Part shown: in pieces, positions 1-25,214 of the stretch
Layout of the letters: the number at the start of each line of letters is the position of its first letter
Position numbering within the stretch: the stretch's first letter is position 1
IMG/VR virus record: IMGVR_UViG_3300036859_000026
Location: 1-38,842 of that record
From: a virus
Length of the DNA: 38,842 nt
Reading direction: 5' to 3' (one strand)
Translations under genes and position numbers: made by a program
The notes under the pieces: model-generated
What the model saw: only the letters and a program-made list of their open reading frames with translations
Databases searched by the model: none
Told to the model about the DNA's origin: nothing

Positions 1-133
1 AAATGGCTGGGCATGGTTCCTGCGCTGCATGAGCATGCCAAGGCTCTGCGCGACCTTGAAGGTATCGCTGATATGGCTGGCGCCGCTGCTGCTGGCGTGA
101 AAGTTCGCGCAGCGAGGGCTGCGGCGAGGGCTG
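1..133. repeat. Left copy of the terminal direct repeat
   Basis: These bases recur at the right edge of the window with one difference (A at 127, G at the matching 38836). The reading frame of the alanine-repeat gene is preserved across the join. The simplest reading is a circular or terminally redundant genome whose assembly was cut inside a low-complexity repeat. It is probably an assembly overlap rather than a biological terminal repeat. Confidence 0.93.
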
Positions 134-414
134 CGGCGGGGGATGCGGCGTGGGCTGCGGCGGGGGCTGCGGCGGGGGCTGCGGCGGGGGATGCGGCGAG
201 GGCTGCGGCGGGGGCTGCGGCGGGGGCTGCGGCGTGGGCTGCGGCGTGGGCTGCGGCGTGGGCTGCGGCGGGGGCTGCGGCGGGGGATGCGGCGTGGGCT
301 GCGGCGTGGGATGCGGCGTGGGCTGCGGCGGGGGCTGCGCTCAAGCCGACAACCGAATGGCTGCAAGCCAGCGCGCTAGACCTCGTGCAACGAATGATCG
401 AGGTGAAAGAATGA
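1..414 (+). CDS. Alanine-repeat phage protein, C-terminal part
   Basis: Continuation of the gene that starts at 38374. Bases 1-117 encode the end of the globular domain, 118-333 encode 18 tetrapeptide repeats in which Ala or Asp is followed by two Ala and then Gly, Trp or Arg, and a short unique tail follows (LKPTTEWLQASALDLVQRMI). The last codons overlap the next start (ATGA). A four-residue period puts the Trp/Arg/Gly positions on a slowly turning face of a helix, so an elongated helical rod is plausible. The repeat is open in all three forward frames, but only this frame has a domain and start on both sides. Confidence 0.85.
   Translation, partial: KWLGMVPALHEHAKALRDLEGIADMAGAAAAGVKVRAARAAARAAAGDAAWAAAGAAAGAAAGDAARAAAGAAAGAAAWAAAWAAAWAAAGAAAGDAAWAAAWDAAWAAAGAALKPTTEWLQASALDLVQRMIEVKE
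118..333 (+). repeat. 12-bp coding tandem repeat, 18 units
   Basis: The unit is GCTGCGGCGNGG. In all 18 copies only two bases vary: the second (C or A, giving Ala or Asp) and the tenth (A, G or T, giving Arg, Gly or Trp). The other ten bases are identical, which suggests recent homogenisation by slippage or unequal exchange. The assembly ends inside it, so the copy number is uncertain. Confidence 0.95.
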
Positions 415-9745: not shown

Positions 9746-10029
9746 GAAAACGCTACATCCAAGACCCGAAGACGCTGGAACTTGTCCCTGCGGATGAGTA
9801 TGTGCGCGCCGAAGTGGATGCGCCCATGGTGATGCCTGATATTCAACCATACAGGTCGCAGATCGACGGCAGTATCATTAACTCGCGTTCCACCCATAAG
9901 GCCCATCTAAGGGCAAATGGTTGTATCGAAGTGGGGGACCAGGTACATCACTTGAAGCCGAAGGAGAAACTGCCTCCTCCCGGACTCAAACAGCGTATCA
10001 TCGATATCGCAAATGCAAAACTCCGCTGA
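9742..10029 (+). CDS. Conserved phage protein upstream of the scaffold (95 aa)
   Basis: ATG overlaps the preceding stop. The sequence has MPDIQPYRSQIDGSIINSRS (about residues 31-50) and HLRANGCIEVGDQ (about 55-67), a pattern found in uncharacterised proteins next to portal/capsid genes of many podoviruses. It is basic at both ends. The role is unknown; conservation within head modules suggests an assembly function. The next gene starts inside its last 17 bases. Confidence 0.6.
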   Translation: MRKRYIQDPKTLELVPADEYVRAEVDAPMVMPDIQPYRSQIDGSIINSRSTHKAHLRANGCIEVGDQVHHLKPKEKLPPPGLKQRIIDIANAKLR

Positions 10030-10483
10030 ACTGACGGCTGGTGAGCTTCGTAAACTCGTCAACTATGACGAGGATACTGGCGCTTTTACATGGCGTATTT
10101 CACGCGTTGGTTGCGCTGCTGGTACCAAACTAGGCGTGGTGCCGCACAGAAATGGGTATCTGCGTATAGGGATCATGCGTAAGCGCTATCTAGCCCATCG
10201 GCTAGCATGGCTGTATGTGCATGGAGAATGGCCGCCAGAAGAGATTGACCACATCAATCGAGACAGGACGGATAACAGAATATCCAACCTTAGGCTTGCT
10301 ACACGCAGACAAAACAGCCAAAATAATTCCCGTCGCGGGATTGCGAAGAATGGAAAAGGCTGGATGGCAGCGCTACACGTGGATCGCAAGCGAATCCACC
10401 TTGGCACATACCCATCGCCTGAACTCGCGCGCAGCGTCTACTTAAAAGCGAAGCGCTACTTTCACGAGTATTCGACTGTATAG
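10013..10483 (+). CDS. HNH endonuclease with C-terminal AP2-like domain
   Basis: A free-standing homing-type nuclease of 156 residues. The N-terminal RISRVGCAAG..G..VPHRNGYLRI region and HRLAWLYVHGEWP lead into the HNH core EIDHINRDRTDNRISNLR (77-94), with the metal/catalytic His at 80 and Asn at 92. The C-terminus (GKGWMAALHVDRKRIHLGTY) is an AP2-like DNA-binding sheet. Same strand as the head genes and overlapping the previous gene, it is probably an insertion that rides the structural operon. Target unknown. Confidence 0.9.
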   Translation: MQNSAELTAGELRKLVNYDEDTGAFTWRISRVGCAAGTKLGVVPHRNGYLRIGIMRKRYLAHRLAWLYVHGEWPPEEIDHINRDRTDNRISNLRLATRRQNSQNNSRRGIAKNGKGWMAALHVDRKRIHLGTYPSPELARSVYLKAKRYFHEYSTV

Positions 10484-11926: not shown

Positions 11927-11965
11927 ATGGCCTTCGCCAATTCGGCGATTTCCGACATTATCGCT
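11927..11965 (+). CDS. Major capsid protein, exon 1 (13 codons)
   Basis: ATG 11927 follows an ACAGGAGATA ribosome site. The 13 codons encode MAFANSAISDIIA, the typical N-terminal arm of this capsid family, and the frame then meets a stop within the intron (TAA at 11966-11968). Joined to 12794 it continues TTIQSRSGELADNV, restoring a 331-residue capsid protein. The last base is T, as required for the G-U pair at a group I 5' splice site. Confidence 0.85.
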
Positions 11966-12540
11966 TAACGCAAAGCTGTAATGTCTGCTTCGGTGATCCG
12001 GCAATGCTTCTTCCTGTTCGCTTCAGTAGTCAAGTACTGAAGATTCCAAGGAACATGAAGCCCGCTAACCGGCCTACCGTCAATGATGTCTTTCAGAGGA
12101 GCGATGTGATCCACCTCGTGGCCTTCTGGGCAAGCTGCGTAAATCGCAAGGATGGCTTCTAGATCGACCCATAGTGGCGTTCTATCCTTGACATCTTTGC
12201 GGCGAAAGTACTTGCGAGCTGGATCGAATGGGTCTATGGCCCACCGCTCGCGGCGTTTCTGGTTGAGGGAGTCTCTAAGTTTGTCATACCGCTCCTTCTT
12301 CAAAGAAACGGTTTTCTGTTTATAGGCTGGGTCGTTTTGGTATTTGTCGCGGCGCCATTCGTTTTGGTACTCCGCGTACTTACCAAAGTACTTTGAGGCG
12401 CGAGTCTTGTTGTCCGCAAGGGAGCAAGGCTTGCAAAGATGGGCGATACCTGTGCCCTTCTTGTAGTAGTCGCCTCGGGGTTTATCGATCTTGCATGCTG
12501 GACAGATTTTGCTTTCGCGTGGCTTGGGACCGGGTTTCAT
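11965..12540 (-). CDS. Intron-borne HNH homing endonuclease, antisense to the capsid gene
   Basis: A 191-residue protein with an N-terminal zinc ribbon (CPAC at 13-16, CKPC at 36-39), a basic helical linker and a C-terminal HNH nuclease: HEVDHIAPL (141-149, His at 145), WNLQYLTTEANRKKH (165-179, Asn at 166). It is encoded on the strand opposite its host intron, so the intron-containing capsid transcript cannot make it. Its stop codon (11965-11967) covers the 5' splice junction. A perfect TATAAT at 12548-12553 lies seven bases before this ATG. ATG 12549 is an alternative start. Confidence 0.88.
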   Translation of the reverse strand: MKPGPKPRESKICPACKIDKPRGDYYKKGTGIAHLCKPCSLADNKTRASKYFGKYAEYQNEWRRDKYQNDPAYKQKTVSLKKERYDKLRDSLNQKRRERWAIDPFDPARKYFRRKDVKDRTPLWVDLEAILAIYAACPEGHEVDHIAPLKDIIDGRPVSGLHVPWNLQYLTTEANRKKHCRITEADITALR

Positions 12541-12793
12541 AGCAGACATTATAGCGAACAAGGCGATGTAAAACAGGGTGAATTCGGTGGAAACCCAGAA
12601 CGGGCAACGCCGAGCGAAGCCGTAGATGTAGGGGAAACCTGAGGGCTACGGAACGTGTAACGACTAGGGTCCGCGCGAAAGCAGTAATGGCCCCACGAGC
12701 GCCCTGCCTCACGTATGTGAGTGATGACATAGTCTGAGCACCATAGGAATATGGTGATGCACCGGATAAAGAGCCGGCGCGATAACAGAACTG
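11966..12793 (+). ncRNA. Group I intron in the major capsid gene (828 nt)
   Basis: It interrupts the capsid frame after codon 13. Exon TATCGCT pairs with intron 11992-11997 (GGTGAT), giving a 6-bp P1 with a U-G pair at the splice site. The 3' end is a G at 12793. The core is clear: a Q-like AACGCCGAGCGAAGCC (12606-12621), P7 halves GACTA (12662-12666) and TAGTC (12730-12734), a CACCATA-GGAA-TATGGTG hairpin (P9, about 12740-12757), and a final CCGG stem-loop. Self-splicing would restore the capsid frame. An HNH gene occupies the opposite strand of the 5' two-thirds. Confidence 0.88.
12548..12553 (-). promoter_or_regulatory. -10 element for the antisense HNH gene
   Basis: A perfect TATAAT on the minus strand ends seven bases before the HNH ATG at 12540, so transcription would begin at or next to the start codon (leaderless message). 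The -35 region is weak (CTGTTT at a 17-base spacing). It lies inside the intron just before the conserved core. Confidence 0.5.
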
Positions 12794-13750
12794 ACAACGA
12801 TTCAATCTCGTAGCGGTGAGCTGGCGGACAACGTCGCCAACAACAACGCCCTTCTGCGTCGTCTGAAGCAGAAGGGGAACGTTCGTCCGTTCAGTGGCGG
12901 TAACGTGATCTTGGAAGAGATCATGTATAACGACACGAACACGAACAACACCAACAGTTATTCGGGGTACGAGCTGCTGAACATCAGCCCGAACAGCCCG
13001 ATGTCTGCTGCTCAGTACAGCATCACGCAGTATGCAAGTGCTGTGACGATGTCTGGTCTGGAAATGCTCCAGAACAGCGGCAAGGAACAAATCATCGACC
13101 TGCTTGAAGGTCGCCTGAAGGTTTCCGAAGCCCAGCTTCTGAACCGCATCGGCAGCGACATCTATCTTGATGGCACTGGCAACGGCGGCAAGAACCTCAC
13201 GGGGCTCGGTGCTGCTGTTCCTGATGCTCCGACCTCTGGCACCTATGGCGGTATTGACCGTGCCACTTGGAGCTTCTGGCGCTCGCAGAAGTACAGCGGC
13301 GTGACCGATGGCGGCGCTGCTGTGTCGGCGGCAAACATCATTCAGTACATGACGGCGCTCGGGATCAAGATGGTCCGAGGCACCGACAAAACTGACCTGA
13401 TCGTCGCCGACAATACCTACTACCAACTCTACGTGAACGCGCTGCAAGCAATTCAGCGCATCACAAACGAGTCGGATGCTGCATCGGGCTTTGCTTCGCT
13501 GAAGTTTTACGGCGGCGGCATGGCTGCGGATGTGGTGCTGGATGGCGGTATCGGTGCGGCAGCGACGGCTGCACACATGTGGTTCCTCAACACGAACTAC
13601 ATCTTCTTCCGTCCTCACAAGGATCGGAACTTCGTCCCCATCGGCGGCGAGCGTCAGGCGGTCAACCAAGACGCCATCGTGAAGCTCATCGGCTGGGCTG
13701 GCAATATGACAACCTCTGGGGCGCAGTTCCAGGGCGTTCTGATTGCCTAA
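12794..13750 (+). CDS. Major capsid protein, exon 2
   Basis: Encodes residues 14-331 of the HK97-fold shell protein. It begins TTIQSRSGELADNV and continues through RLKQKGNVRPFSGG and NTNNTNSYSGYELLNISP, the N-arm/E-loop region shared by podovirus capsid proteins of this type. The C-terminal part contains WFLNTNYIFFRPHKDRNFVP, near the end as usual. A reader using only ATG/GTG would call a truncated gene from the GTG at 12905; the 37 codons before it are in frame and conserved-looking. Scaffold upstream and a decoration candidate downstream support the call. Confidence 0.92.
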   Translation, partial: TTIQSRSGELADNVANNNALLRRLKQKGNVRPFSGGNVILEEIMYNDTNTNNTNSYSGYELLNISPNSPMSAAQYSITQYASAVTMSGLEMLQNSGKEQIIDLLEGRLKVSEAQLLNRIGSDIYLDGTGNGGKNLTGLGAAVPDAPTSGTYGGIDRATWSFWRSQKYSGVTDGGAAVSAANIIQYMTALGIKMVRGTDKTDLIVADNTYYQLYVNALQAIQRITNESDAASGFASLKFYGGGMAADVVLDGGIGAAATAAHMWFLNTNYIFFRPHKDRNFVPIGGERQAVNQDAIVKLIGWAGNMTTSGAQFQGVLIA

Positions 13751-23152: not shown

Positions 23153-24684
23153 GCCAGCGCATTGATGTGCCGGGCATGGGCATAGTGGAATTCCCTGACG
23201 GGATGACCGACGCCGCCATGTCTGCGGCCATCAAGAAAGCTTTGGTGCAACAGCAACCGCAACAGACTGGGGCGCAACTTCAAGCCGCCAATACTGGCCC
23301 TGGCGAAGCCTTCCTTGCGGCGGCCGGCAAGAAGACCGATGACATTCTGTCGGGATTGACGCAACTCTATCTAGGTGCGCGCGGAGAGACTTCGGCGCTC
23401 GATGCGCTCAAGAGCCAGCAGGAACAGAAGAAGGCCGAATTCGCGCCGCTCCAGCAGGCTAGACCATGGTCAACAGGCTTCGGGTCGGCGCTGCCTTCAA
23501 TGGCACTGCCTGCGACATCGATTCTCGGTGCTGGCGCGGCAGCGGCTTTGCCTGATCTTCTAGCCTACGGGTCTCCAGAAGAGCGGCTGAAGGCGGGGGC
23601 GATCTCTGGCGCTGGCGGCATGGCTGGCGCGGCGGCTGGCAAGCTCATCGCGCGTGCGCTAAAGCCTTCTGGCGTCGGCAATGCAGGCGTCAGCGCCGAA
23701 ACGCGCGAGGCGGCTGACAGACTCGGCTATCAGATGACGCCGGGTCAGGCTACGCAGAATCCTGCGATGCAGGCATTTGAGAACTACCTCGCCAAGTCTC
23801 CCGGGTCTGCCGGCACGATGCAGGCCATCAACCAGGGCAATCAAACCGCCATCAATAAGGCTGGCGCTTCTGCTATCGGTCAGACTGCCGATGTCCTAGA
23901 GGGCCCGGTGTTCAAGAGCAGCAGCAAAGCCATAGGCGATGAGTTTCGTCGCTTGGAAAGCATTAGCCGGCCCGTTCTCGGCAATAAGTTCGTTGATGCG
24001 TTGGACGTGGTTGCATCCAACAATGCGGCGCGCGGCCCGTTCGCAAACACTGAGATTTCATCAGTCGTAGACAAGGCGTTGGACCTCGCGGCCAAAGGTC
24101 AACTTACGGGGAAGGCCTACAAAGAGATTCGCTCTACGCTTGCCTCGAAAGCATACGAGGCGACTGATTCGACGGTCAAAGATGCATACCGCTCGGTTTT
24201 CTCTGCGCTGGATGATGCGGCCAAGGGTAGCTTGAGCGCAGAGAATCAAGCGGCATGGGATGCGGCGCGTTCGCAGTGGTCTGCGTGGAAAACTCTTGCG
24301 AAGGGCAATGTGACGGAAGGCGGGAACATCAGCGCCGCTCGTCTCGCATCAGCCTTGCGGAATCAAAGTGACGCTTTCCGTCAAGGCGCGCAGGGACCCC
24401 TCCAAGACATTGGCCGCATCGGTGAGTCGCTTAAAGGCGTTCCCAATCCGACGAGCGGTCAACTGCTACAACAGGCTCAATTTGCCGATCCTCGAACCCT
24501 ATTCGGGGCAGTTCAAGCGCTTGGCAATAAGACGGCGGTCAAGGCTTATACGAGCCCAACGGCTATGAAATGGCTCTCTGGAGGCTACGACATTGGTCCG
24601 ACTGGGAAATCGATTGTCATGCTCGGCGGGCGTCCTGTCGGCATTGAAGCGCTCAAGAAGTATCTTGGCGTAGAGGAGAACTAG
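23149..24684 (+). CDS. Internal virion (ejection) protein (511 aa)
   Basis: It overlaps the previous gene by four bases. It begins with an IDVPGMGIVEFPDGMTDAAM motif (residues 4-23) found in large internal virion proteins of podoviruses. An Ala/Gly-rich amphipathic region (about 120-170: GAGAAAALPDLLAYG, ISGAGGMAGAAAGKLI) could insert into membrane during ejection. The rest is helical. No lysozyme-type motif is seen. Its stop (24682-24684) shares bases with the stop of the antisense HNH gene that follows. Confidence 0.65.
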   Translation: MSQRIDVPGMGIVEFPDGMTDAAMSAAIKKALVQQQPQQTGAQLQAANTGPGEAFLAAAGKKTDDILSGLTQLYLGARGETSALDALKSQQEQKKAEFAPLQQARPWSTGFGSALPSMALPATSILGAGAAAALPDLLAYGSPEERLKAGAISGAGGMAGAAAGKLIARALKPSGVGNAGVSAETREAADRLGYQMTPGQATQNPAMQAFENYLAKSPGSAGTMQAINQGNQTAINKAGASAIGQTADVLEGPVFKSSSKAIGDEFRRLESISRPVLGNKFVDALDVVASNNAARGPFANTEISSVVDKALDLAAKGQLTGKAYKEIRSTLASKAYEATDSTVKDAYRSVFSALDDAAKGSLSAENQAAWDAARSQWSAWKTLAKGNVTEGGNISAARLASALRNQSDAFRQGAQGPLQDIGRIGESLKGVPNPTSGQLLQQAQFADPRTLFGAVQALGNKTAVKAYTSPTAMKWLSGGYDIGPTGKSIVMLGGRPVGIEALKKYLGVEEN

Positions 24685-25178
24685 GATGACTTCGGCTTAC
24701 GCCCAGGCTTGCCAATCGGATAGAGAAGTTCCTCGATTGGAATCTTCCTATCGTAGTAGAGGAAGCGATCCCAAGCTGCTCGACAGATTTTGCAAGTGCG
24801 CAACCCGCGATGAACATACGTATTCTCAGGCGTGAACTCATGCCCGCGTTTGCAGTGTGTCTGCGCGCGCTTCATCTCGGCGTGAGCTATCACGGCCTTC
24901 ATGACATCGGCACGGGAGTTAAGCAGCTGTTCTCGCCTCGTGGCCCATCGGCAGTTGCTGGGCTCGTAGTTGCCGTCATTATTGATGCGGTCAAGCTGAA
25001 GGCCTGGTGGACGGTCTCCCATATCAGCGTAAAAGTCCTTGAAAGACTTGCGCCATCGATCGCATACCGTAATACCTCGTCCTCCGTAGTTCTTCCAATC
25101 AGGCCGATTGGAGTTTGTGCAGCGCTGGATCATGTTGTCCCAGGTGTTGTATAGGGACTGCTTGGTTTTGTCTCGCAT
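24681..25178 (-). CDS. HNH endonuclease, antisense in the structural operon
   Basis: A 165-residue homing-type nuclease between the last ejection protein and the fibre gene. The N-terminus has YNTWDNMIQRCTNSNRPDWK and the GGRGITVCDRW segment of phage HNH proteins. The nuclease core is LQLDRINNDGNYEPSNCRWA, in which Asp and Arg replace part of the usual DHxN. A CKRGHEFTPENTYVHRGLRTC segment forms a second zinc-like module. ATG 25178 is used; it lies eight bases after a TATACA -10 (leaderless). A TTG at 25196 would add six residues. Confidence 0.85.
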   Translation of the reverse strand: MRDKTKQSLYNTWDNMIQRCTNSNRPDWKNYGGRGITVCDRWRKSFKDFYADMGDRPPGLQLDRINNDGNYEPSNCRWATRREQLLNSRADVMKAVIAHAEMKRAQTHCKRGHEFTPENTYVHRGLRTCKICRAAWDRFLYYDRKIPIEELLYPIGKPGRKPKSS

Positions 25179-25186
25179 GAAGACAT

Positions 25187-25214
25187 TGTATATCAACCAT
25201 CATGGGGAATGCAA
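25187..25214 (-). promoter_or_regulatory. Promoter for the antisense HNH gene
   Basis: On the minus strand, TTGCAT (25209-25214) and TATACA (25187-25192) are separated by 16 bases. The HNH ATG is eight bases beyond the -10, so the message would be leaderless. The -35 overlaps the ribosome site and start region of the rightward fibre gene, so the two may interfere. Confidence 0.55.

Follow-up and report, generated by a model that had tools for sequence, protein, structure and literature searches.

A group I intron in a phage major capsid gene, probably mobile, with an antisense HNH endonuclease gene in its P1 loop

The window, that is, the whole stretch of DNA analysed here, spans the 38,842 bases of an IMG/VR virus record. 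Comparison with related sequences confirms that its major capsid gene is split after 13 codons by a group I intron. The intron is very probably a mobile element that carries an HNH homing endonuclease gene (HEG) in antisense orientation inside the P1 loop. The entire split gene occupies positions 11927–13750, and the intron proper accounts for 11966–12793 (Table 1). By sequence, at least 14 related phage contigs have this arrangement. It bears on two long-standing questions: how an HEG inside an intron can be expressed while the host gene stays unharmed, and from what beginnings composite mobile introns develop. A single gene in one phage group here displays a free nuclease, an empty intron, the composite of the two, and close alleles with and without the intron.

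Table 1. Features of the split capsid gene (positions in the window)
Feature	Position	Strand	Basis
Capsid exon 1, 13 codons	11927..11965	+	Joined frame compared with intronless homologues
P1 5′ strand, AUCGCU	11960..11965	+	TCGCT invariant in all 14 carriers
TTAA at the 5′ splice site: capsid exon 1 stop on +, HNH stop on −	11965..11968		Read directly
HNH (endonuclease VII-like) homing endonuclease gene, N-terminal zinc ribbon, 191 aa	11965..12540	−	PHROG 1035, invariant residues, codon-position bias
Group I intron, 828 nt	11966..12793	+	Rfam RF00028, covarying core in relatives, exact joint
5′ arm of P1-extension stem	11975..11989	+	Permutation test, 13 loci
3′ arm of P1-extension stem, overlapping the antisense −10 element	12541..12555	+	Permutation test, 13 loci
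TATAAT, 7 nt before HNH ATG	12548..12553	−	Conserved in relatives
Internal guide sequence GGCGAU (P1 3′ strand)	12562..12567	+	GGCGA invariant in alignment
Ribozyme core, P3–P9 and terminal G 12793	12562..12793	+	Rfam and core alignment
Capsid exon 2	12794..13750	+	Joined-frame alignment

The split capsid gene and its exon joint

The capsid frame opens at an ATG and continues for 13 codons (MAFANSAISDIIA) up to the stop codon TAA at 11966–11968; it picks up again at 12794, and exon 2 is intact. When 11965 is joined to 12794, the capsid product has 331 amino acids. It gives an unbroken alignment with capsid proteins from intronless genes in Myxococcus phage Mx8 (residues 1–331) and Stenotrophomonas phage BUCT555 (1–329), as well as in phages ppBjS10J-1 and Mx9. 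The alignment is likewise unbroken for nearly all of 80 IMG/VR loci, at identities of at most 86%. According to the alignments with intronless homologues, the exact joint restores the host capsid protein. An earlier sequence-only reading of this DNA had placed the break after 13 codons and the restart at 12794, with alignment to intronless relatives as a check, and the alignments agree with the joint at 11965/12794. For annotators, there is a practical side: a capsid gene may seem to be missing its first codons when an intron and an antisense nuclease gene intervene.

The group I ribozyme

The Rfam group I model RF00028 matches positions 12527–12756 of the + strand with 52.8 bits (E 9e-11), the gathering score being 50. 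P1 (AUCGCU/GGCGAU) ends in a U·G pair at the 5′ splice site, and this pair is conserved in relatives, as is the terminal G of the intron. The P7 halves GACTA/TAGTC are at 12662–12666 and 12730–12734, and a P9 hairpin with a GGAA loop is at 12739–12756. No clear P2 was found in the ribozyme core. The marks on which the sequence-only reading had based the group I assignment, namely the P1 U–G pair, the P7 halves, the GNRA-type P9 hairpin and the terminal G, are thus each present, and the covariance search it had proposed gave a score above gathering.

Compensatory changes are found in 29 of 45 predicted core pairs in a 12-sequence core alignment. A nested fold cannot show P7, and this helix was read from the alignment: it is GACUA/UAGUC in most sequences and GAUCA/UGAUC in one of the relatives (L087), a compensatory difference.

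The antisense HNH gene

The HNH frame is intact and fills the P1 loop. Because TTAA at 11965–11968 is a stop on both strands, the HNH stop codon (11965–11967) straddles the 5′ splice site. The start is likely ATG 12540; the first TTG, at 12561, was set aside in its favour. The protein has no match in Pfam at E ≤ 0.01 but matches PHROG 1035, ‘endonuclease VII’ (E 1.5e-10), and all 12 family members match this PHROG. The zinc-ribbon cysteines are invariant among the relatives, and so are the HNH motif residues D147, H148, N169 and N178. Differences in the HNH frame are concentrated at the third codon position (0.33/0.26/0.60 for the three positions), and therefore the antisense frame is the coding one. 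These results bear out the earlier proposal of an opposite-strand HNH gene with a zinc ribbon whose stop covers the 5′ splice site. The structure model of the protein is weak (pLDDT 69.6, pTM 0.34) and has no significant PDB match, so that it does not confirm the fold; searching the PDB by sequence yielded a single weak match, to an unrelated protein.

Related introns and mobility

Close relatives of the HNH protein in IMG/VR have 55–64% identity, and their genes are nearly all antisense and directly 5′ of capsid exon 2. The order in these relatives is exon 1 ending in TCGCT, a stop codon, the antisense HNH gene, the guide sequence and the core. Exon 1, antisense HNH gene and core are found together in 12 further IMG/VR contigs, which makes 13 loci with the window, one of which (L085) is counted although its contig ends before much of exon 2. 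Two more loci, L091 and L094, have the 5′ half of the arrangement at a contig end. A DNA pattern search with the guide-sequence region revealed an HEG-less intron at the same site, with a P1 loop of 12 nt (L166). In L088 and L093, an antisense relative of the HNH gene lies just 5′ of an uninterrupted capsid gene. Cellular genomes yielded no close HNH relatives, and only distant HNHs came from a broader scan of viral sequences. In L095 (1207–1975), a group I core (77.4 bits) is followed by a same-strand gene related to the C-terminal part of the HNH protein; orientation is therefore not fixed in the wider HNH family.

The triplet GCT precedes the splice site in 14/14 carriers compared with 14/79 intronless relatives (Fisher 2.7e-9, uncorrected for relatedness). 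Such an enrichment is what P1 would require, or what co-conversion would leave behind. On a capsid (exon 2) tree, the presence of the intron needs at least 11 changes, and L164 has the intron while L077 and L079, at 93–94% exon 2 DNA identity, are without it. Such patchiness fits homing or precise loss and suggests mobility.

A search pattern for the 3′ end of the ribozyme had 118 matching stretches. Related introns also cut this capsid gene elsewhere, at several further codons; at a second capsid site, codons ∼70–73, antisense HNH genes appear again, here of other HNH families (L297, L372, L380, L382 and L390 at codon ∼70; L340 at codon ∼72). The L297 nuclease has an HNH_5 domain and a weak zf-FCS match, and that of L340 has NUMOD3 plus HNH_5. 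Antisense placement thus recurs in the capsid gene. No open reading frame was found in the introns of L289 and L386. A rule by which HEGs of this ribozyme lineage would be antisense in the P1 loop and sense in later loops was dropped, as the motif scan was too crude.

How the composite arose can be considered in terms of collaborative homing, a published model (reviewed in PMC2988022). In this view, an antisense HNH gene stood free just upstream of the capsid gene and already had codons 13/14 as its target; it would have combined with an HEG-less intron at those codons, and the orientation would be inherited from the upstream position and not selected. The locus resembles the model in that free-standing HEG, HEG-less intron and composite are all found at it: L166 supplies the intron, and L088 and L093 the free-standing genes, directly upstream of the capsid gene and with a similar −10/start unit. 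However, an HNH tree built to order the free-standing and intron-borne copies gave no resolved order, and its base was not formed by the free-standing copies; these could instead be intron losses, and the antisense HNH genes near codons ∼70–73, which belong to other families, would have to be explained separately. Collaborative homing is a real possibility here, if not the favoured one.

The predicted closing stem of the P1 loop and expression of the nuclease

The ends of the nuclease insert are complementary, GCUGUAAUGUCUGCU (11975–11989) with AGCAGACAUUAUAGC (12541–12555). In the window, these arms pair better than all 300 shuffles. Over the 13 loci, pairing with the own arm averages −19.0 kcal/mol vs −14.6 kcal/mol with arms from other loci, and 0 of 20,000 permutations were as low. 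Control segments further inside the insert give no pairing signal (p 0.40), and free-standing HNH genes have no excess pairing. The signal is uneven, as the own partner ranks poorly in L086, L087 and L017. The tests support a predicted P1 extension formed by the insert ends, by which the guide would stay close to the 5′ splice site. The P1 loop of the HEG-less intron (L166:3489–3500, TGACATTTAATA) resembles the HNH-start arm of the composites, AGACATTATAGC; this could be a deletion scar or chance.

The hexamer TATAAT occurs once in the 38.8-kb window, 5′ of the HNH gene. With a start codon 6–9 nt further on, it is present in 11/13 intron copies, usually as TGCTATAAT, an extended −10; the exceptions are L164, where a start codon is missing at the expected distance, and L092, where the hexamer reads TATGAT. 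Of the free-standing copies, L093 keeps TATAAT-N6-ATG without the closing stem, and L088 has GATAAT at the same distance from the start. Such units are found in 19 of 1,928 open reading frames of the HNH loci, and the 19 include the HNH genes themselves. A scan for sigma-70 consensus promoters found nothing, the −35 being poor, and the unit was therefore judged by conservation.

Could TATAAT merely follow from the need for a stem closing the P1 loop, and not be a promoter, with the HNH gene transcribed from a distant antisense start or unexpressed in infection? It does sit within the 3′ arm and lacks a −35. Yet the opposite arm varies while TATAAT hardly does, 19 of the 1,928 open reading frames of these loci have the unit, and the free-standing L093 copy keeps it where there is no stem. 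For this last reason the promoter reading is preferred to a purely structural one, which appears unlikely.

If TATAAT is a promoter element, the HNH mRNA is predicted to be antisense and leaderless or nearly so, with a start at about 12540, and would therefore lack the complement of the core (12562–12793). It would carry the complement of the loop, of the 5′ splice site and of whatever lies beyond. Antisense transcription might interfere with capsid splicing, as the sequence-only reading had suggested; with a predicted start outside the core, it would be expected to act directly on no more than the loop, the 5′ splice site, exon 1 and the ribosome-binding site of the capsid gene. The sequence-only reading had held that TATAAT uncouples the nuclease from capsid transcription. 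The conserved antisense TATAAT stands; the uncoupling is suggested by a conserved unit that is also present beside an uninterrupted capsid gene.

A second HNH-like gene lies at 24681–25196 of the window (− strand), antisense between two + strand genes. It has the typical RCTN..W..YGGRGI pattern and no Pfam match at 0.01. TACAAT is found 6 nt before its ATG, a start unit resembling that of the intron HNH gene.

Proposed mechanism

In the proposed scheme, the ribozyme would excise the 828 nt and ligate codons 13 and 14. Pairing between the two ends of the nuclease insert would extend P1 and keep the 5′ splice site and guide sequence close despite a loop of about 600 nt, and ribosomes translating the capsid frame would stop ahead of the ribozyme, at the stop codon on the splice site. 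From its own −10, 6–9 nt before the start codon, the HNH gene would give a leftward, (nearly) leaderless mRNA; its transcription would be independent of that of the capsid gene and would not produce the complement of the catalytic core, to judge from conservation of the unit. As in other nucleases of this kind, the enzyme may then nick or cut intronless capsid alleles near codons 13/14, and repair would copy the intron in. The antisense promoter and the closing stem yield testable predictions.

Perhaps the HNH gene with its built-in leaderless promoter is a portable antisense cassette, which left a place next to the capsid gene for the P1 loop of a capsid intron and acquired a stem, formed by its two ends, through which P1 remains functional. 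This is a tentative and somewhat doubtful reading. If true, one piece of DNA serves as the promoter −10 on one strand and as an arm of a ribozyme stem on the other, and the intermediate states still exist.

That the capsid gene is instead a decaying relic, broken or mis-assembled and never spliced, is highly improbable in view of the exact joint, the intact exon 2, the covarying core, the coding-constrained HNH frame and the occurrence of the same arrangement in at least 14 other contigs, the independence of so many contigs ruling out an assembly artefact.

Known systems

The sequence-only reading had regarded antisense endonuclease genes as known mainly from eukaryotic nuclear introns. This overlooks a direct phage precedent: antisense HEGs in phage capsid introns are already known from mycobacteriophage LittleE (JF937101), whose capsid intron has a bottom-strand endonuclease gene and whose splicing was demonstrated by RT-PCR and N-terminal sequencing of the capsid protein (PMC3706429). 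In both cases, the major capsid gene of a phage holds a group I-type intron whose endonuclease gene is on the opposite strand. The LittleE gene, however, is 3′ of the core (core 859–1062, gene 1065–1598 of L397), whereas the HNH gene of the window is in the P1 loop. In addition, the LittleE intron is from a single phage and has a different insertion site, and its nuclease is described as LAGLIDADG-like with an HNH-like C-terminus.

Among nuclear rDNA group I introns, Didymium Dir.S956-2 and Dsq.L2066 have antisense His-Cys HEGs, and here too the antisense gene is proposed to use its own promoter (PMC9548176). These introns differ in their eukaryotic rDNA setting, the His-Cys nuclease, and the spliceosomal introns and polyadenylation; the HEG of Dsq.L2066 is in P9.2. 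I-PfoP3I, from the DNA polymerase intron of cyanophage Pf-WMP3, is likewise an HNH homing endonuclease of a phage group I intron and was shown to nick exon 1 of its target; that intron is in a DNA polymerase gene and of group IA2, and the passages on it do not mention antisense placement (PMC3428280). A search of published, mostly open-access papers found no description of the HNH-intron family of the window.

Other genes in the window

Shortly upstream of the capsid module, at 10013–10480 (+), is an HNH_3 gene (Pfam E 2.6e-20) on the sense strand. An open reading frame at 13–414 (+) encodes a highly repetitive protein of the AAAGAAAGDAAWAAA type.
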